The notes beneath the pieces were generated by a model. It made no database searches and was not told the DNA's origin. It saw only the letters and a list, made by a program, of their open reading frames with translations. From Flavobacterium luteolum (lineage in GTDB: Bacteria; Bacteroidota; Bacteroidia; Flavobacteriales; Flavobacteriaceae), in contig NZ_CP114286.1 in the NCBI RefSeq assembly GCF_027111275.1, forward strand, positions 2,852,001 to 2,916,000: DNA of 64,000 nt, given 5' to 3'. Every line of letters begins with the position of its first letter. The first letter of the stretch is position 1. The position numbers were made by a program, and so were the translations under genes. Positions 32,846 through 41,086 of this stretch are shown here, piece after piece.

Positions 32846-33364
32846 ATGCTGATTAAATCTGTAAACGGAAAATCGCCTCTTATTCCAGAGGATTGTTATG
32901 TAGCCGAAAATGCTACTATTGTTGGAGATGTTACTTTTGGAGAATCTTGCAGTGTTTGGTTTAATGCTGTTGTGAGGGGAGATGTTCATTTTATTAAAAT
33001 CGGAAATAAAGTAAACATTCAGGATGGTGCAGTAATTCATTGTACATATCAAAAACACCCTACGATTATAGGAAATAACGTTTCAATAGGTCATAATGCA
33101 ATTGTGCACGGATGCACGATTCATGATAACGTTTTAATCGGAATGGGAGCAATCGTAATGGATAATTGCGTAGTAGAAAGCAATGCCATAATTGCTGCAG
33201 GTGCCGTAGTAACTCAAAATACGGTTGTAACTTCAGGAAGTATTTATGCTGGTGTTCCGGCAAAAAAGGTGAAAGATATTGACCAATCTGATTTTGCTGG
33301 CGAAATTGGACGTATATCAAATAATTATGTGATGTACTCGAGTTGGTTCAAAGAAGAAAAATAA
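32846..33364 (+). CDS. gamma carbonic anhydrase family protein
   Basis: A 172-residue left-handed beta-helix protein with clear hexapeptide repeats (ATIVGDVTFGESCSVWFNAV and later NNVSIGHNAIVHG). The zinc histidines of the gamma class are in place: HCTYQKH and IGHNAIVHG. The family hydrates CO2, but many bacterial members of this YrdA/PaaY-like branch have weak or no carbonic anhydrase activity. The gene is 11 bases after the PorP-like gene and ends six to eight bases before a large palindrome. Confidence 0.92.
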   Translation: MLIKSVNGKSPLIPEDCYVAENATIVGDVTFGESCSVWFNAVVRGDVHFIKIGNKVNIQDGAVIHCTYQKHPTIIGNNVSIGHNAIVHGCTIHDNVLIGMGAIVMDNCVVESNAIIAAGAVVTQNTVVTSGSIYAGVPAKKVKDIDQSDFAGEIGRISNNYVMYSSWFKEEK

Positions 33365-33372
33365 AAATATAA

Positions 33373-33444
33373 AAATTCCAAAACAGAAAATTCCAAATTC
33401 CAAAGGTTAAGTCTTGGAATTTGGAATTTTCTGTTTTGGAATTT
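33373..33444. repeat. perfect 31-bp inverted repeat, likely bidirectional terminator
   Basis: The left arm is 33373-33403 and the right arm 33414-33444, perfectly complementary over 31 bases, with a ten-base loop (AGGTTAAGTC). The words AATTCCAAA and CAGAAAATTCC dominate the arms. It fills the gap between two convergent genes, where it could stop transcription from both sides, but the arms are longer than a normal terminator needs and look like a mobile or dispersed repeat. Confidence 0.85.
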
Positions 33445-33450
33445 CATGAA

Positions 33451-34164
33451 CTAAAGGTTGATTTTTTCGAAGAAAGTATTTTTATAGCTTTCGCTGATTG
33501 GAACTCTTTTATCGCTTATTAATACCTTGTTTTTCTGAATCGATTTAACATGTTTGATATTGATAATATACGACCTGTGAATTCTAGCAAAACCTTTGCT
33601 CGAAAGTAAATTTTCAAGTTTGATTAAACTGATTAGCGTCAGCGTAAATTTATTGTCTGTAGTGTAAATTTTGACATAATCTTTAAGGCCTTCAATAAAA
33701 AGAATATCAGCAAAATTCAATTTTACATTTTCATATTCAGCTCGAACAAACATAAAATCCTGTTCAATTTCTGGAGTGTTGTTGTTTTCGGCAAGTGTTT
33801 GAGTCGTTACCGGCTGTAAAACCTGCTGTGCTCTAACCACTGCTTTTAGAAATCGATGAAACGGAATAGGTTTTACTAAATAATCTACTGCACCAAGATT
33901 AAAACCTTCTACAGCATAATCAGAATAAGCCGTCGTAAAAATTACTAGAGGTTTTTTTTCTATGGTATTTAAAAAATCAATTCCTGAAAAATGAGGCATC
34001 TGAATATCAAGAAAAACCAAATCAACATTATTTTGGTTGATAAATGAAACGGCATCAATAGCATTGTTGAAAGTGCTTACCAACTCAAGAGTATCAACTT
34101 TTTTGACAAAATCCTGTAAAAGTTCTACAGCCAAAGGTTCGTCATCAATAATTACACATTTCAT
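33451..34164 (-). CDS. LytTR-family response regulator
   Basis: A 237-residue response regulator. The receiver domain (about 1-120) has the acidic pocket IIDDEP, the phospho-acceptor D53 in FLDIQMP, and the conserved K in VKPIPFHRF. The C-terminal LytTR DNA-binding domain (about 140-237) carries ILFIEGLKDYVKIYT and FARIHRSYIINI. It is the partner expected for the LytS-type kinase encoded two genes upstream; a 107-base gap and a promoter-like element separate it from the intermediate dioxygenase-like gene. Target promoters cannot be told from the sequence. Confidence 0.93.
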   Translation of the reverse strand: MKCVIIDDEPLAVELLQDFVKKVDTLELVSTFNNAIDAVSFINQNNVDLVFLDIQMPHFSGIDFLNTIEKKPLVIFTTAYSDYAVEGFNLGAVDYLVKPIPFHRFLKAVVRAQQVLQPVTTQTLAENNNTPEIEQDFMFVRAEYENVKLNFADILFIEGLKDYVKIYTTDNKFTLTLISLIKLENLLSSKGFARIHRSYIINIKHVKSIQKNKVLISDKRVPISESYKNTFFEKINL

Positions 34165-34201
34165 CTTTTCAGAATTAGTTTTTTAAAATTTATTTCGCAG
34201 T

Positions 34202-34209
34202 CAAAAGTA
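34202..34209 (-). promoter_or_regulatory. LytTR regulator promoter, -7 element
   Basis: TACTTTTG on the minus strand fits TAnnTTTG, 37 bases before the start codon, and could give the regulator its own transcript. Confidence 0.5.
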
Positions 34210-34271
34210 GTTTGAAACCAGTAAATTAAGTTTTAAAATTTTCATAAAATACTGGTTCTTACAAATCAAAA

Positions 34272-34982
34272 TTATGCGTTAACGGTTATTGTTTTTGTAA
34301 GCGTATAACCATCTGTAATGTTACCCGTAATTGTAGCAAGTTCCTCAGATAAGCTGTCGGCAAATACATTGTCTTTTGCATTCGCAGTATCTGCTTGTCC
34401 GTGTGCCACATAATTGGTGCTGGAGTAAACTTGACTCGAAATAGTTTCTGGAAATGCGATCTGAGTTACAAGTAAAGAAGTTCCCGCACTCGATAAAACT
34501 TCAACATGCACATGCGGGGCTCTTCCTTGATACCAGCCTGGATAAATAGAGATAAAAGAAACTTCTCCGTTTGTGTTTGAAGTCTGTCTACCTCTCAAGA
34601 AATGAACAGAAGTATAATCGGTCTGTTGCATTTGCGTTCCTCCATATTCAGAATAATTTCCGTCTTTGTCGCAATGCCAGACATCTACTAAAACTCCCGA
34701 AAGAGGTTCGCAATTATTCTTTTTATTTTCAATTTTTAAATTAATCAATAGCGCAATTCCAACACGGTCAGACTTGATGTTTTCTAAAATTAGCTGACTT
34801 GGCGTTTTAATCGGGAACGGACCCTTTGTTTCTGCTGGAGAAACAGTACAGCTTTCGTCTCCAGAATTGCTTGTATCAGTTTCGTCATTATCGCTTTTAG
34901 AACAAGATTCTAAAAATTTTGAAGCAGTTGCCAATGATGCAATGCCCAAAATACCATTTCGGATGAATTTTTTTCTGTCCAT
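34272..34982 (-). CDS. secreted intradiol ring-cleavage dioxygenase-like lipoprotein
   Basis: A 236-residue exported protein. The N-terminus (RKKFIRNGILGIASLATA) leads to a lipobox FLESC, so it is probably a lipoprotein, followed by an acidic low-complexity linker of about 15 residues. The core has all four non-heme iron ligands of intradiol dioxygenases: Y110 in KDGNYSEY, Y151 in PGWYQG, and H157 and H159 in GRAPHVHVEV. The family normally cleaves catechols or protocatechuate in the cytoplasm; an envelope-anchored member is unusual in role, and the substrate is unknown. It lies 12 bases after the sensor kinase gene and before its response regulator. Confidence 0.88.
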   Translation of the reverse strand: MDRKKFIRNGILGIASLATASKFLESCSKSDNDETDTSNSGDESCTVSPAETKGPFPIKTPSQLILENIKSDRVGIALLINLKIENKKNNCEPLSGVLVDVWHCDKDGNYSEYGGTQMQQTDYTSVHFLRGRQTSNTNGEVSFISIYPGWYQGRAPHVHVEVLSSAGTSLLVTQIAFPETISSQVYSSTNYVAHGQADTANAKDNVFADSLSEELATITGNITDGYTLTKTITVNA

Positions 34983-34993
34983 AATCGGTTTTT

Positions 34994-36109
34994 TTAATGT
35001 ATTGCGGTTTTAATTTCGTCTAACTTTAAATTTAAATGAACTCGGTAATATTCATTATCCTGAGTAATGGTCAGTTCGTGTGCGTTTGGATAAAGAAGGT
35101 CAAGGCGGCTTTGAATGTTTACCAATCCAATTCCTGAGTTTTCAGGGTCTTTTACATAGTTTTCAATCGTATTTTCGATCCAAAAGTCAAGATTATGATC
35201 TGTTATAAGAATCTTGATTTTTACGTGAGCGGCGCCTTTATAATCAGTTCCATATTTAAAGGCATTTTCAACAAAAGAAATCAACAATAAAGGTTCGATA
35301 AATTTGTTTTTTGTATCGCCATGAACGTTGATTACAATGTCTTCGATATTGTTTAATCGCAGTTTTTGCAATTCAATATAATTCTGGATATAATTGACCT
35401 CTTTTTCTAAAGCCACCGTTTTGTTGTCTGTCTCGTAGAGCATATAGCGCATAAGCTCAGACAAGGTCACGATGGCATCAGGGACCAAATCAGATTTTTT
35501 GTGTGCCAGCGAATAAATACTGTTTAAGGAATTAAATAAAAAATGCGGATTGGTTTGTTTGCGCAAATAGATCAATTCAGTATTTGTTCGGTGTGTTTCG
35601 GCAATCAGTTTGTTTTGCTGATTGTTATAAAATTCAGTTAATGTTCTAATAATTGCAGAAACCGTAATAATTAAGATGTAGAAAAATGATGGGGCAATTT
35701 TAAAAAAAAACGGCTGTCTCATTTCTATTCTGTGATGCATTCTGTCGCCTTTTGGAAAAAAATGGGGGTCACGAATAATGGTTTCAGAATGCATCATTTT
35801 TTCGGGCCTTAAATGTCTAAATTCAGGAATAAAATAATTTAGCCTTATTGCCATAAATAGGACTATCAGACCAATAGCAAATGTGCCATAGACCCAATAT
35901 TTTTTTTGCAGTAGATAATTTGGAACCAAATAAAAATAGTTCAGATAAAACAATAAAATTCCAGAAAGCCATTGGGCATAAAAATCGTTGTCGAGTTTAA
36001 ATGGACTTTCGTAAAATTGAATTAGAGAAGTCAAAATAAAGAAAATCCATATCATAAAATGAAATAGTATTTTGTTGTAGCCTGTATTTTTAATGGTATC
36101 GATCTGCAT
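34994..36109 (-). CDS. LytS-type sensor histidine kinase
   Basis: A 371-residue membrane kinase with four predicted helices in the first 155 residues, then a His-kinase-family dimerisation region with the phospho-acceptor H189 in NPHFLFNSLNSIY, and a HATPase domain with NAFKYGTDYKG. A histidine- and methionine-rich loop lies between the second pair of helices (KMMHSE, KGDRMHHRIEM), a conceivable metal or ligand sensor. Its start codon abuts the DUF4907 stop, so the two are translationally linked. It should phosphorylate the LytTR regulator at 33451. Confidence 0.92.
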   Translation of the reverse strand: MQIDTIKNTGYNKILFHFMIWIFFILTSLIQFYESPFKLDNDFYAQWLSGILLFYLNYFYLVPNYLLQKKYWVYGTFAIGLIVLFMAIRLNYFIPEFRHLRPEKMMHSETIIRDPHFFPKGDRMHHRIEMRQPFFFKIAPSFFYILIITVSAIIRTLTEFYNNQQNKLIAETHRTNTELIYLRKQTNPHFLFNSLNSIYSLAHKKSDLVPDAIVTLSELMRYMLYETDNKTVALEKEVNYIQNYIELQKLRLNNIEDIVINVHGDTKNKFIEPLLLISFVENAFKYGTDYKGAAHVKIKILITDHNLDFWIENTIENYVKDPENSGIGLVNIQSRLDLLYPNAHELTITQDNEYYRVHLNLKLDEIKTAIH

Positions 36110-36439
36110 TTACAATTTTATTTTTAATAAAATTAATTCATTTTTGGTTACCGTAGGAGATAAGTTTTCTTTGAGTTTCTGCTTTACAAGATCAGCAACT
36201 TTTAGGGCATCGTTTTCTGTTTTAAAGCTTTTAGTGTCGCTTATTACCGGAATGATAGACTGTTTAATTAAAATTTTTTCTTTGTAGGCTATTGTGTAGC
36301 CCCATCCCGAATTTGTTTTAAAAGATGCTGTTGTTAAAGCTTCTTTTTTTGTGCAAGCAGTAAAAAGTGAAAGAAGTGCAAAAACGATTAAAATCTTCTG
36401 GATAGTGCTCCAGAAGACTTTTTTAATATTAGTTATCAT
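36110..36439 (-). CDS. DUF4907-type small lipoprotein
   Basis: A 109-residue lipoprotein with signal peptide and lipobox LFTAC. After it comes a short domain with SGWGYTIAYKEKILIKQS and a C-terminal helix KTENDALKVADLVKQKL. The pattern fits what I know as DUF4907; its function is unknown. A GTG at 36445 would add two residues; I start at the ATG at 36439, which overlaps the Kelch gene by eleven bases. The next gene, the sensor kinase, begins at the base after its stop, so this protein is tightly coupled to both neighbours. Confidence 0.7.
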   Translation of the reverse strand: MITNIKKVFWSTIQKILIVFALLSLFTACTKKEALTTASFKTNSGWGYTIAYKEKILIKQSIIPVISDTKSFKTENDALKVADLVKQKLKENLSPTVTKNELILLKIKL

Positions 36440-37436
36440 CGTCACTTTGTTCGTCTAACGGCTTAAATTCCCAAGCATCGTCAAAGTAAGTAGAGCCAAT
36501 TCGTCCTAACATATAGAATCCGCGATTATTGATGGCAAAACCAACTGCATCGGTTCTTGTAGCTCCTTCCATTGGAGTTCTTTCTGTCCATAAGTCGGTT
36601 GTTGGGTTGTATTCCCAAACTGTTTTTACGTTTTCGCCTCCTACAACATACCCTAAACCATTCATAGAAAAGCTTGATGCATTAGAACGTACAATAGCAT
36701 AATCATCGTTGTAGCTGTAATCGTCGTCTGTATCTTTATCGATATCTCTTTTTCTTGTCCAAACATCTGTTGCTGGATCAAATTCCCAGAAATCTTCCTG
36801 ATATACGCCATTGTTTACACCAGTCACCAAGTACGCTTTGTCTGCAATTGTAAAAACAGTCGCGTTACGTCTTTTATTTCCGCTGAAACCATTTACTAGA
36901 GTCCAAGTATTTGCTTGGTCATCATACTGATAAAAATCTTTCAAATAATTTCCGTCATAACCTGTTCCAAAATAGGCTTTACCACCAACCTGAAAACCTA
37001 CTGCGGCATAACGCGCTGTTCCAGCAAAATCTGTTTTTTGTGTCCAGCTATTTGCAGACGGGTCATATTGATAAAAATCTTTCAGTTTGTTTGTTCCGTC
37101 ATAACCAAGACCTACATAACCTTTGTCGTTTAATGCAAAACTGGAAGCAGAACTTCTTCCAACACCGCCAAAATCAGCTTTCTGTTCCCAATAATCTCCA
37201 GTTGAATTGTAAACCCACAAATCTTTCAAATAAACATCGCCTGTATATCCGCCTACTACATAAGCATAATCTCCGATAACAAAACTTGTGGCACTAGATC
37301 TTGCAGGGCCATCAAAGGCTGATTTTTTAATCCAGTTTCCTACCAAATCATCGTCATCATTATCATTGCTGCAGCTTATAAAAAAGAGGCTCGAAAAAAG
37401 CGCTGTGAATAAAATTCCTTTTTTTAGATTAATCAT
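36429..37436 (-). CDS. Kelch-repeat lipoprotein
   Basis: A 335-residue lipoprotein: signal peptide to lipobox FFISC, an acidic DNDDDD linker, then a Kelch beta-propeller with about six blades. Each blade repeats the motif family 'YVVGGYTGD...DLWVYNSTGDYW' and 'YFGTGYDGNYLKDFYQYDDQANTW', with paired glycines before a tryptophan. Kelch propellers bind proteins or sugars; there is no catalytic oxidase domain visible, so it is not a galactose oxidase. It sits between the barrel protein and the DUF4907 gene and may act as the ligand-binding partner of the envelope cluster. Confidence 0.9.
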   Translation of the reverse strand: MINLKKGILFTALFSSLFFISCSNDNDDDDLVGNWIKKSAFDGPARSSATSFVIGDYAYVVGGYTGDVYLKDLWVYNSTGDYWEQKADFGGVGRSSASSFALNDKGYVGLGYDGTNKLKDFYQYDPSANSWTQKTDFAGTARYAAVGFQVGGKAYFGTGYDGNYLKDFYQYDDQANTWTLVNGFSGNKRRNATVFTIADKAYLVTGVNNGVYQEDFWEFDPATDVWTRKRDIDKDTDDDYSYNDDYAIVRSNASSFSMNGLGYVVGGENVKTVWEYNPTTDLWTERTPMEGATRTDAVGFAINNRGFYMLGRIGSTYFDDAWEFKPLDEQSDDDN

Positions 37437-37450
37437 AGTGTATTTAAAAT

Positions 37451-38293
37451 TTATTGTTTGTATTTGATCCCTATTCCTAAAACGTAACCATTTCCGGTAT
37501 TGTAGTCGTATATTTTATGGTCACTGTTGTCTAGTAAATTGTATTTTTTATTGAAATCGTAACCTGCTTTAAAATTTAAAAACCAATTGCCTGCAACATT
37601 TCTTTCATATTCCAATGCCGAAGTCATTTGCGATAAAGTGGCTTTTTTTGCCTTATTATCTGCATCGGCAGTTTCGTCCAAATGATAAAAGTTTCCATTA
37701 AAACTATTTGTCAGACTAAATTTGTTTCGATCATTATTTGAATAAGAAATTTTCGAATCTGGAAATCCGATTCTAAAATCGATTTTCTCATTCATTTTAT
37801 AATCAAAAGCAACAATCGGTGTAATTTTCGGAGCTCCGAAAATAGAGGTACGTCCCGCTCCAATTATTACATTTACTTTTGAACTTAGCCGCTGGCTTAT
37901 TTCTAAATTTCCTAAAACAGTAATAACAGAAAAATCTAGTTTGCTCTGAAAATTCGCTGTTGGAATTATAGAAAGCCTCCATTTTGTTTTTTCTACTATT
38001 TCAGATGAATACTCAAATTTGTTTTGAACTTGGTTGAATTTATCCTCATCTGCATAAAAGTTATAGGGATTTAATTCGTAATTCACCTTCAAATTAGAAT
38101 ATTCTAGCGTGTTTGCTATTTTGCTTTTTGCGTCTAATTTTTTCTGATAAAAAATAGCAATGTTTGTTTCATTAAAATTTATCTTTTCTGTCGGCTCGGT
38201 TTTAAAATTTATAGCAGCGCTAAAATTCTCCTGAGCTTTTAAACCTAAAAATGAAATCAAAAAAAGAGAACAAACCAAAAACCTTACTTTCAT
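37451..38293 (-). CDS. outer-membrane beta-barrel protein (DUF6268-like)
   Basis: A 280-residue protein with a signal peptide ending GLKAQ, followed by alternating polar and aromatic strands and ending GNGYVLGIGIKYKQ, as expected of an outer-membrane barrel of about eight or more strands. The text resembles DUF6268 proteins, but I am less sure of the family than of the barrel. It is the first gene of the cluster and lies behind a promoter-like element. The Kelch gene starts 14 bases after its stop. Confidence 0.75.
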   Translation of the reverse strand: MKVRFLVCSLFLISFLGLKAQENFSAAINFKTEPTEKINFNETNIAIFYQKKLDAKSKIANTLEYSNLKVNYELNPYNFYADEDKFNQVQNKFEYSSEIVEKTKWRLSIIPTANFQSKLDFSVITVLGNLEISQRLSSKVNVIIGAGRTSIFGAPKITPIVAFDYKMNEKIDFRIGFPDSKISYSNNDRNKFSLTNSFNGNFYHLDETADADNKAKKATLSQMTSALEYERNVAGNWFLNFKAGYDFNKKYNLLDNSDHKIYDYNTGNGYVLGIGIKYKQ

Positions 38294-38310
38294 TATTTAT
38301 TTTATTGGCT

Positions 38311-38318
38311 CAAAATTA
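38311..38318 (-). promoter_or_regulatory. promoter of the Kelch/kinase/dioxygenase cluster, -7 element
   Basis: TAATTTTG on the minus strand fits TAnnTTTG, with the first start codon 17 bases downstream. No clear upstream element was found. Confidence 0.5.
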
Positions 38319-38501
38319 GACGGATGACGCTCTTAAAAAAAAGAAGATATATATATGACGTGTTTTGATAGACAAAATCACTTTTTTTAAGGTCGAATTA
38401 AAATTTTAGAATAGAATTTAGATTATAGATTGTTTTGTACAGTTTGTAGCTTAAAAAAGCGCGGTAGTATATGTTATAGTGTGTTGCCAAGGAGCACAAT
38501 T

Positions 38502-38509
38502 TATATTTG
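38502..38509 (+). promoter_or_regulatory. DUF4270 gene promoter, -7 element
   Basis: TATATTTG fits TAnnTTTG and lies 15 bases before the ATG at 38525. The 231-base divergent spacer holds little else. Confidence 0.6.
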
Positions 38510-38524
38510 CCCAAAAATTAAATT

Positions 38525-39850
38525 ATGCGCAAGTTTATATTGATGCTGCTTTTTGTACTAACCTTATTTTCATGTGGTACAGATACAGATACTGGAGAAT
38601 TTACTGTTGGGTCTGATTATTTGGCTTTGAGTAATAAAGTGATTTTGATTGATACGATGACAGTCAATATGTCAACGATTAATTTTGATTCATTAGCAAC
38701 TTCTAGCCGAGGTAGAATCCTGATAGGGAATTATGATGATCCCATTTTCGGAAAAGTAAAATCGGATAGCTATTTTCAGGTTTCTACTGATATTTATGCA
38801 TTAAACAGTATTGGATCAGATACAGAATCTACAAATTATGTTTTTGATTCTATTTCTATGATTCTTAAGTATGATAGGTACTTTTATGGAGATACGACAA
38901 AAGTTCAGACGTTTAATATTCACAGATTAACTCAAAAAGTTAAGCCAAATAAAGAGGATAATAATTTCTATAATAATTCGACACTGACTTATAGCTCGGA
39001 AAGTTTGGGTACAATCTCATTTAGACCAAGACCAAAGGAAAAAGATTCTATCAATATTCAAATGAGTAAAGAATTTGGAGAAGCTCTTTTTCAAAAAATA
39101 AAGAAAAGAGAAGTTACAGATTTTGGCAGTTTTACAGAATATCTCAAAGGATTTGTATTGGTTCCAGAAAATTCAAGTTCTTCCAATGTTATCGGATTTA
39201 GTGTTTCGAATAGTAAGGTTCGGTTGTATTATTCGAAGTATCAGACAGATAGTGAAACTCCATATATAATCGATTTTTCGATTTTAGACACTTCTAAACA
39301 GTTTAATTCTATTTCGCTCGACAAAACAGGAACGATCCTGCAAAATCTCCCCGTATCTACTGGTACATTATCAAGTACACTAGTCAGCAACCAAGGATTT
39401 ATACAATCTGGAACAGGTGTTGCTTGTCGGGTCGATTTTCCAAATATAAAGCAGTTTAAGAATATTTCGGCAAACGGCGCTATTGTCGATGCAGAATTAA
39501 TTCTTAAACCAGTTAATAATACTTATTCAGAAAAATATCCTTTAGCTGATTCGCTAACTGTTTATGTGGGAGATAATTTAAATAGAATAAGCGGAACTCT
39601 TGTCAATGCTGCTGGCGCTTCGGTTTATGGAAGGCTGAGTAAAAGCAGCGATGAATTTAACGAAAATGTAGCATATTCAATTTCGGTCGGAGCTTTTCTT
39701 CAAAAGGAAATGCTAAAACAATCTGATTCAAGATCATCGCTTATTTTGACACTGCCTGGAATTGCACAATCTGTAAACAGAATCGTTCTGGGTGATCAAA
39801 AACATTTCAACAATAAAATTCAGCTGAAAATTTATTACATCTCTTATTAA
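38525..39850 (+). CDS. DUF4270 family lipoprotein
   Basis: A 441-residue lipoprotein with lipobox LTLFSC. The mature region begins with the family's pattern of strands (FTVGSDYLALSNKVILIDTMTV, then SSRGRILIGNYDDPIFGKVK) and includes a central SPATS-like stretch of polar strands. DUF4270 proteins are common in Bacteroidota and of unknown function; some are encoded with carbohydrate-uptake or barrel genes. Its stop codon is immediately followed by the ATG of an outer-membrane barrel gene, so the two are co-translated. Confidence 0.85.
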   Translation: MRKFILMLLFVLTLFSCGTDTDTGEFTVGSDYLALSNKVILIDTMTVNMSTINFDSLATSSRGRILIGNYDDPIFGKVKSDSYFQVSTDIYALNSIGSDTESTNYVFDSISMILKYDRYFYGDTTKVQTFNIHRLTQKVKPNKEDNNFYNNSTLTYSSESLGTISFRPRPKEKDSINIQMSKEFGEALFQKIKKREVTDFGSFTEYLKGFVLVPENSSSSNVIGFSVSNSKVRLYYSKYQTDSETPYIIDFSILDTSKQFNSISLDKTGTILQNLPVSTGTLSSTLVSNQGFIQSGTGVACRVDFPNIKQFKNISANGAIVDAELILKPVNNTYSEKYPLADSLTVYVGDNLNRISGTLVNAAGASVYGRLSKSSDEFNENVAYSISVGAFLQKEMLKQSDSRSSLILTLPGIAQSVNRIVLGDQKHFNNKIQLKIYYISY

Positions 39851-41086
39851 ATGAAAAATAAAATTGTTTTATGGAGCTGCTTCCTTTTAATGTCGCTGAC
39901 TTCGTTTTCTCAAAGTATTTCAAGTTCTCCATATTCGCTTTATGGATTAGGAAGTCTGTATGATTCAGATTTTGGCTATCTGCCTTCAATTGGTGGTTCT
40001 GGAATTGCTTTGCCTTCAGATACTTTTATCAATAATTTAAATCCAGCTTCTTTAGGATTTATGTATCAAAATCATTTTCTTTTTGATCTTGGAGGAAAAG
40101 CGATTGCGACAACATATCAAGGCAGTAATCGTACAGAAAAGCGAAATAATTTTCAGTTTTCTCATTTGGCTTTTGCTTTTCCAGTCACAAAAAACTCTGG
40201 CTTTAGTTTGGCGCTTCGCCCATATTCAAGTTCGGTATTTAAAATCTCAAATTTAAAACTTCCAATTGCCGATAGTCAGGAATATTATTACGTTACGGCA
40301 CAAGGATCTGGAGGTTTAAACAATCTAGATTTTTCATACGGATATCGATTTGGAAAAAAATTAACAGTAGGGGCAACTGGAACGGTACTTTTTGGGAACA
40401 CCGTTGATGATCGAGCCTTTTTGATTTCAAATGCTATTACTACCGTCCATAAGCAAACAGATTATAGAGGCGTTCGTGCAACATTAGGGGCTCAGTTTAA
40501 AATAGATTCTACATTTACAATTGGAACAACATTTAAAGTCCCTACAAGAATAAATGCTTCTAAAGTACAATCTGTAACAAGTATTGCAGATGAAGTAGAA
40601 TCTTCTATTGAAACTGATAAAGCTTCAGATACAGACGATTATTATATGCCGCTAGAAATTGGTTTTGGAGCAAGTAAACGATTTAAAAATAATTTGAGTG
40701 TAACTTTAGATTATGAAAAAAGCTTCTGGAGTAATACAAACCAATCCGATCTTTATGGTGAATTTGTAAATCAAGATCGTTTTGCATTAGGAGTTACCTA
40801 TAGCACTAAAAAGAATGTTAGGAAATATTGGGATAGGGTAGGTTATGCTGCAGGTATAAACTTTGATAATGGCTATCTGGAAATTGACAAACAGCATGTC
40901 AATAGCGCATCTATTTCTGTTGGACTAAATCTTCCAATCGAAAATACATTTTCATCACTTAATATTTCTTATTCTTACGGACAGAAAGGCAGAATTGCAA
41001 ATGATCTAATAAAAGAAAACTACCACAAAATATCACTTAATCTATCGTTGGACGGAATTTGGTTCGTCAAGCGAAAGTTTGAATAA
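39851..41086 (+). CDS. outer-membrane beta-barrel protein, partner of DUF4270 lipoprotein
   Basis: A 411-residue protein with signal peptide ending LTSFSQ and a mature start SISSSPYSLYGLGSLYD, a conserved opening of a flavobacterial barrel family. The rest alternates aromatic-rich strands and ends with SLNLSLDGIWFVKRKFE. I recognise it as a generic outer-membrane barrel, similar in outline to OmpP1/FadL proteins; the substrate is unknown. It starts at the base after the DUF4270 stop and ends four bases before murI on the other strand, so no terminator can fit between. Confidence 0.8.
   Translation: MKNKIVLWSCFLLMSLTSFSQSISSSPYSLYGLGSLYDSDFGYLPSIGGSGIALPSDTFINNLNPASLGFMYQNHFLFDLGGKAIATTYQGSNRTEKRNNFQFSHLAFAFPVTKNSGFSLALRPYSSSVFKISNLKLPIADSQEYYYVTAQGSGGLNNLDFSYGYRFGKKLTVGATGTVLFGNTVDDRAFLISNAITTVHKQTDYRGVRATLGAQFKIDSTFTIGTTFKVPTRINASKVQSVTSIADEVESSIETDKASDTDDYYMPLEIGFGASKRFKNNLSVTLDYEKSFWSNTNQSDLYGEFVNQDRFALGVTYSTKKNVRKYWDRVGYAAGINFDNGYLEIDKQHVNSASISVGLNLPIENTFSSLNISYSYGQKGRIANDLIKENYHKISLNLSLDGIWFVKRKFE

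Follow-up and report, generated by a model that had tools for sequence, protein, structure and literature searches.

A LytS/LytTR operon of Flavobacterium luteolum adjoins second copies of BamG- and BamH-family genes and may control an alternative outer-membrane assembly module

We analysed a window of 64,000 nucleotides (nt) from Flavobacterium luteolum (contig NZ_CP114286.1), to which all coordinates below refer, and in particular a minus-strand operon (33451-38293) that codes for a LytS/LytTR two-component system and several lipoproteins. The results suggest that the best-supported setting of this signalling cluster is an alternative outer-membrane assembly (BAM) module, to which one lineage has added a catechol dioxygenase. 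At the locus, conservation joins two divergent gene sets, a bamH2-like/bamG2-like pair and the series DUF6268-Kelch-DUF4907-kinase-(dioxygenase)-LytTR regulator. On this basis, we consider the chances about even that the locus encodes an alternative BAM module under two-component control, for which we infer the regulation, the interaction and the signal from sequence comparisons.

The divergent pair lies on the plus strand. The protein encoded at 39851-41086, a BamG-family barrel with a FadL fold (BamG2-like), has no Pfam match and scores 408.4 bits against the BamG model NF053685, above its curated cut-off of 250. In a Foldseek search, its AlphaFold model (pLDDT 79) matched best the BamG chains of the Bacteroides thetaiotaomicron (B. 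theta), Flavobacterium johnsoniae and Porphyromonas gingivalis BAM complexes (9hiv_F, E 2e-28; 9n2d_B, E 6.1e-27), followed by FadL/TodX. Directly upstream, the gene at 38525-39850 encodes a DUF4270 lipoprotein (PF14092, E 8.5e-29), a BamH paralogue (BamH2-like) carrying the surface signal GTDTDT after Cys17. The genome contains two matches each to the BamG family and to the DUF4270/BamH family. F. johnsoniae BamG (9n2d chain B) aligns with 703 bits to a gene at another locus (L278) and with 110 bits to the window protein, and F. johnsoniae BamH (9n2d chain C) aligns with 621 bits to a gene away from the window (L279). Judged by these scores, the window pair therefore represents second copies, paralogous to BamG and BamH. 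The window BamG-family protein shares 26% identity with the genome's own BamG, and it is not an orthologue of the essential F. johnsoniae BamG. These neighbours, which are more constant partners of Kelch and DUF4907 than the dioxygenase is, had been missed in the initial annotation of the cluster.

Second copies of BamG and BamH appear in two 2025 structure papers, whose main texts present them as unexpressed in rich medium or undetected, deletable and without a known role (PMC12611786, PMC12578637). As described there, BamG2 and BamH2 of F. johnsoniae can be deleted and are not appreciably expressed in rich medium; those of B. theta form a putative operon and are undetected by proteomics, and BamG2 is deletable. 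Gene order, size and paralogy point to the window pair being the BamG2 and BamH2 of these species. Like the F. johnsoniae BAM, as far as the main text of PMC12611786 describes it, the window combines a BamG-family FadL-fold barrel with a DUF4270 lipoprotein bearing an acidic surface-export tail, and DUF4270 is also the class of the genome's own BamH orthologue. Unlike the F. johnsoniae BAM genes, the window pair is paralogous, the BamG and BamH orthologues lying at other loci. With B. theta BamG2-BamH2 (Bt1785-Bt1786, as given in the main text of PMC12578637), the window shares a second BamH that is shorter by ~100 residues and lies beside a second BamG, the two BamH copies of the window genome measuring 441 (second copy) and 550 amino acids (aa). 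The main text of PMC12611786 makes no mention of 'two-component', 'Kelch' or 'operon', and that of PMC12578637 none of 'Kelch', 'two-component' or 'synten'.

All six minus-strand genes that had been named in the initial annotation were recovered as open reading frames with Pfam support. The first is a DUF6268 gene (37451-38293, PF19783), whose product is assumed to be an outer-membrane barrel. It is followed by genes for a Kelch β-propeller lipoprotein (36429-37436, five Kelch_1 stretches), a DUF4907 lipoprotein (36110-36445, PF16250), a LytS-type sensor histidine kinase with a hydrophobic N-terminal part (34994-36109, PF06580), an exported intradiol ring-cleavage dioxygenase lipoprotein (34272-34982, PF00775), which is optional, and a response regulator with receiver and LytTR DNA-binding domains (33451-34164, PF00072 and PF04397). 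The pairing of a His_kinase protein with a receiver-LytTR protein assigns the system to the LytS/LytTR class by Pfam. It resembles other members in its PF06580 kinase and its receiver and LytTR regulator, and differs from them in that the kinase gene abuts a Kelch-DUF4907 pair and that, in the window clade, the kinase and regulator genes are separated by a dioxygenase gene. The genes are tightly packed, as had been noted at the outset: Kelch and DUF4907 overlap by 17 nt with a GTG start, or by 11 nt if the ATG two codons inside is used (with lengths matched to the window gene, 21 of 40 orthologues also gave an 11-nt overlap), and the DUF4907 stop is 0 nt from the kinase ATG.

This organisation is conserved within the genus. 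A kinase search over 150 Flavobacterium genomes yielded 39 loci besides the window (L031-L069), and the complete order DUF6268-Kelch-DUF4907-kinase-LytTR regulator is present in 36 of them. The remaining three comprise a locus without a recognisable DUF6268 gene (L055), one at a contig end (L067) and a degraded one (L069). A lack of this order in other flavobacteria had been named beforehand as grounds to refute the proposed cluster, and the order, without the dioxygenase, is conserved there. In all 40 measurable loci (37 of the 39 plus L136-L138, with starts picked by length), the DUF4907 stop and the start of the kinase gene are spaced by -1 to +1 nt, which bears out the view of a conserved envelope signalling cluster with tightly coupled lipoprotein and kinase genes. 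The divergent pair (38525-41086) adjoins the operon in 36/39 loci. Furthermore, at least two BamG-family matches (E up to 0.001) occur in 39/40 genomes with DUF4907, as opposed to 49/110 others, in a count uncorrected for phylogeny. In the degraded locus (genome G141), the kinase gene is partial with stops, the regulator and BamG2-like genes are partial, and the remaining module genes were not found.

Across the phylum, DUF4907 was found in 29 of 395 sampled genomes, and we examined 17 loci, 15 from outside the genus and two from within it (L134, L135). Kelch adjoins DUF4907 in all 15 non-genus loci; 12 of these have a BamH2-like gene nearby, and 10 a BamG2-like one. Eight of the 15 contain a LytTR system, in three positions: beside DUF4907 in five, before Kelch in L124, and after BamG2 in L126 and L132. 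The kinase, regulator, Kelch, DUF4907, BamH2 and BamG2 genes of L124 are all co-directional; L132 holds the regulator only, and its receiver domain is below the Pfam cut-off. Pfam confirmed LytTR or kinase domains in nine proteins from six of the eight loci (L121, L124, L126, L129, L132 and L133). The way in which the regulator is joined to the module thus varies between loci, and the BamH2-like and BamG2-like genes are more constant partners of Kelch-DUF4907 than the dioxygenase. Within the genus, L134 contains all parts of the module.

The predicted topology of the lipoproteins follows from a published surface-export rule, which in the main text of PMC12578637 calls for at least two acidic residues among the six after the lipid cysteine. 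Such an acidic tail is found in Kelch proteins from 38/40 orthologues, in 35 of the 37 BamH2-like proteins whose lipid cysteine was located (39 in all), and in 10/10 dioxygenases, as against only 4 of the 35 DUF4907 proteins with a recognisable lipobox (of 40). Kelch, the BamH2-like protein and the dioxygenase are therefore predicted to be surface-exposed, and DUF4907 to be mostly periplasm-facing. The DUF4907 model (pLDDT 86) displays a small β-α domain behind a long N-terminal helix and has no significant match in the PDB (best E 0.47). In the literature searched, we found no paper on DUF4907 and none that brings together LytTR, Bacteroidetes, histidine kinase and Kelch. The kinase loop, rich in His and Met, had been taken as a hint at metal. 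In an alignment of 42 kinases that includes the window protein, only 4 sequences retain H107, 12 retain H116 and 19 retain H125; several positions are mostly gaps, and the loop-edge H99 is kept in 28. We rejected metal sensing by this loop because its His and Met residues are, H99 notwithstanding, mostly unconserved.

The intergenic region between the two gene sets contains candidate control elements. The operon promoter has a candidate -7 element TAATTTTG (38311-38318, minus strand); the initial annotation had drawn the right edge of the cluster at 38318, a position that belongs to this promoter-like element and lies outside the coding sequence. Upstream of it lies a phylogenetic footprint, GTCTATCAAAA-N5-CATATATATATCTTC (38343-38373, minus strand), a candidate regulator site, and the bamH2-like gene has its own candidate -7 element TATATTTG (38502-38509, plus strand). 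In an alignment of 16 of 39 collected upstream regions, window included, which were chosen as close relatives, the regions share a -7-like TAnTTTTG, the footprint, and a second kept stretch near the bamH2-like promoter.

We propose that an envelope signal would reach the LytS-type kinase, probably via the periplasm-facing DUF4907 lipoprotein, the gene of which abuts the kinase gene. Acting in the intergenic region between the two gene sets, the LytTR regulator would then activate both, so that a BamG2-BamH2 unit for assembly is made under particular conditions, together with a surface Kelch lipoprotein. Two-component control of this kind would explain why BamG2 and BamH2 are silent in rich medium. 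In the window clade, an exported dioxygenase under the same control would act on the cell surface, where its substrates for cleavage would be compounds of the catechol type.

The window dioxygenase matches PF00775 with 41.1 bits (gathering cut-off 27.3). Intradiol dioxygenases bind iron through two Tyr and two His ligands, and Y110, Y151, H157 and H159 are invariant among 31/31 aligned Flavobacterium dioxygenases, with Arg154 likewise kept. Its closest solved relatives are spider-mite enzymes (5vg2 and 6bdj, E 1e-21 and 8.6e-22). One spider-mite intradiol dioxygenase cleaves catechol in vitro (PMC9167512). With these and other secreted intradiol dioxygenases (4ilt/4ilv), the window enzyme shares export and the iron-ligand positions, and it differs from them as a predicted surface lipoprotein within a two-component operon. 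It is probably active. The N-terminus (window residues 1-13) has a [RK][RK]xF motif common to relatives and mostly followed by a lipobox, which recalls a twin-arginine translocation (Tat) signal with Lys for one Arg.

A role of the enzyme as a fixed part of the sensor is not supported: 31 of the 39 other Flavobacterium loci are without the gene and it is intact in eight. Among the basal loci L058-L069, 11 of 12 (L069 is degraded) have a kinase-regulator gap of -4 to 42 nt, except for L061 with 102 nt; the gap is 103-225 nt in the 19 other dioxygenase-less loci, which are nearer the window. Remnants of the gene persist: both ends are recognisable in L036, and its last codons are kept in L031, L032 and L035, where the downstream block has 88-92% identity. 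Most other gene-less near loci retain the regulator-upstream block alone (faintly in L054 and L056; undetected in L057). Given these gap sizes and remnants, the likeliest history is insertion of the gene between kinase and regulator in a single lineage, followed by repeated loss. The regulator-upstream block (34215-34257, minus strand) is conserved in the majority of related loci from which the dioxygenase has been lost and contains an imperfect inverted repeat, AACCAGTA...TACTGGTT; the 20-nt core of the block occurs exactly only once in the genome. Beside it, TACTTTTG (34202-34209, minus strand) fits the Bacteroidota -7 consensus TAnnTTTG, so that in the window clade the regulator gene has a candidate promoter-like element of its own.

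The part of the claim that does stand is a link between the dioxygenase and LytTR systems beyond the window genome. The exported family occurs in 48/390 Bacteroidota genomes (E up to 1e-15). Among the best 80 of 573 matches, the nearest dioxygenases belong to Flavobacterium sp. LPB0248 (97%) and F. sharifuzzamanii (96%); the list may not include the record of the window itself. From the same 80 we drew 38 named loci, leaving out those of the window type; within two genes of the dioxygenase, 11 of them have a LytTR-type regulator, counted at ≥100 bits to the window regulator, and 12 a pirin-like gene. A regulator lies within two genes in 13/20 further Flavobacterium places, two loci being common to both sets. 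In a family-wide draw (20/378 genomes with the enzyme, E up to 1e-30), three of the 20 places outside the genus are at the Kelch/BamH2 locus (L257, L258, L263), each differently positioned and with bamH2- and bamG2-like genes present. Five adjoin other LytTR systems (L256, L259-L262). At the remaining 12 places, no LytTR pair is immediately adjacent to the dioxygenase gene, and L274 has one two genes off. The sets overlap in that L257 is L183 and L259 is L209.

Altogether, the dioxygenase gene takes five positions at the module locus: between kinase and regulator, before Kelch (L183, where no DUF4907 gene was found), between Kelch and DUF4907 (L263), after the regulator (L258), and after BamG2 (L184, L185). 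Three of 20 family-wide places at this locus would arise by chance with P about 1e-5, assuming eight slots in 3,900 genes and independence. The approximately unbiased (AU) test rejects a single clade of the window type with L184 and L185 (p 0.009), with L183, L184 and L185 (p 0.005) or with L263 (p 0.007), and does not reject one with L183 (p 0.37), L257 (p 0.41), L258 (p 0.13) or L257, L258 and L263 together (p 0.09); these p values are optimistic because the groups were named after the data had been seen. At least some of the arrivals look independent. The placement in L184 may be a chance juxtaposition, since the gene is directly beside trmD there and dioxygenases linked to two-component systems lie 2-3 genes from trmD in L209 and L261. 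The relation of the window regulator to the regulators of dioxygenase loci is a fork without resolution. The recurrence in five positions supports a functional link of the enzyme to the regulatory module, as output or cargo; combined with its place beside LytTR systems elsewhere in Bacteroidota, it indicates that the dioxygenase is probably co-regulated cargo and not part of the sensing core.

Several observations weigh against a two-component-controlled BAM module. The BamH2-like protein has no match to the BamH equivalog model NF053686 at E up to 1, whereas the L279 gene scores 618 bits, and the orthology of the window pair to the named BamG2 and BamH2 is deduced from paralogy, gene order and size. 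Second BamG-family matches are common among Flavobacterium genomes without DUF4907 (49 of the 110). Outside the genus, Kelch-DUF4907 has no BamH2-like neighbour in 3/15 loci and no LytTR system in 7/15, and the genus locus L135 consists of Kelch-DUF4907 alone, with no BamH2-like gene and no LytTR system. The footprint is an unproven candidate for a LytTR site, with no other copy in the genome at ≤3 mismatches. In B. theta, a bamH bamH2 double deletion resembles bamH deletion alone in its stress phenotype, which the authors, in the main text of PMC12578637, take as contrary to a rescuing BamG2H2 complex. Finally, the low-iron induction of BT1785-86 amounts to 2.2-3.1-fold with P 0.249 in one data set (PMC10434189), and we did not count low iron as an inducing condition.

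Four other explanations were weighed. By analogy with RcsF, Kelch/BamH2 and DUF4907 could report the assembly or integrity of the outer membrane to the kinase, BamG2-BamH2 then being a sensing scaffold and not an assembly factor. The predicted topology, the near-zero DUF4907-kinase spacing and the frequent BamH2/BamG2 neighbourhood would agree with this, and RcsF-barrel complexes offer a precedent; the likeness to the Rcs envelope stress response (PMC4942254) lies in lipoprotein-barrel reporting across the outer membrane to a signalling system, and is an analogy only. Considering that the DUF4907 model found no significant structural relative and that the seven non-genus loci noted above have no LytTR system, we regard such surveillance as unlikely. 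Aromatic-compound sensing, with the exported dioxygenase acting alongside Kelch and DUF4907 to make or remove the signal read by the kinase, would be in line with the LytTR-type neighbours of exported dioxygenases in many Bacteroidota (at least 11 of the 38 named loci, and the 13 and five places of the further sets) and with the five positions at the module locus. Nearly all of the 31 orthologous loci without the enzyme nevertheless keep kinase, regulator, Kelch and DUF4907, some with remnants of the lost gene. In other LytTR loci, moreover, the dioxygenase gene is usually found behind that of the regulator, in many cases accompanied by a pirin-like gene, in an output-like arrangement, and we hold this sensing role to be rather improbable.

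Just slightly more doubtful is that Kelch, DUF4907 and DUF6268 work as a set in regulated glycan handling at the surface, which BamH2-BamG2 would merely help to assemble. The Kelch protein does pass the Pfam model NANM (N-acetylneuraminate epimerase) with 50.1 bits at a cut-off of 45, but it also passes several other Kelch models, some by a larger margin, and stays far below the NCBIfam epimerase models (51 bits, cut-off 416). No carbohydrate gene was recognised in the kept neighbourhood, whose flanks were labelled against our query set only. That the genes are adjacent by inheritance alone, through chromosomal inertia, fits the likewise conserved flanking genes within the genus; outside it, however, Kelch-DUF4907 and the BamH2-like gene occur together in both divergent and co-directional arrangements, which makes inertia very unlikely.

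Other arrangements of the dioxygenase family were observed along the way. A second Flavobacterium locus type has the order LytS-LytTR-dioxygenase (L099, L100, L102, L103, L105-L107, L109-L115), usually with a pirin-like gene (PF17954 in the two scanned, from L102 and L104) as well as a protein of ~167 aa; several of the loci have a PorP/SprF-like and a giant adhesin-like gene ahead. The ~167 aa family (L102:6809-7309 and relatives) accompanies exported dioxygenase and pirin-like genes in several Bacteroidota, and the one member scanned has no Pfam match. One Flavobacterium dioxygenase relative (L114:8341-9366) carries a type IX secretion system (T9SS) C-terminal sorting domain (PF18962) in place of the lipobox, the same enzyme thus taking a different export route; the Flavobacterium relative in L115 has a T9SS tail too, by eye. 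A Crp-like regulator gene adjoins another dioxygenase branch (L117, L118, L180, L196, L199, L271). At the downstream end of the window operon, a 31-nt perfect inverted repeat with a 10-nt loop (33373-33444), a likely bidirectional terminator, separates the regulator gene from its convergent partner at 32846-33364. None of five proteins scanned matched defence-system models.

Returning to the alternative BAM module, the comparative context of a LytTR system and Kelch and DUF4907 lipoproteins offers a handle on BamG2 and BamH2 through the regulator. It also provides a first functional setting for DUF4907, DUF6268 and the window Kelch family, and draws attention to a family of exported intradiol dioxygenases found repeatedly alongside LytTR systems in Bacteroidota. 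Tentatively, and with somewhat less than even confidence, we suggest that Bacteroidota may possess a second BAM (BamG2-BamH2) that is inducible and served by a trans-envelope signalling line of its own, which would run from surface Kelch through periplasmic DUF4907 to the LytS/LytTR pair. Such a system would be off in rich medium, and would serve to assemble or display special surface proteins with swappable cargo enzymes, the exported catechol dioxygenase being one example.

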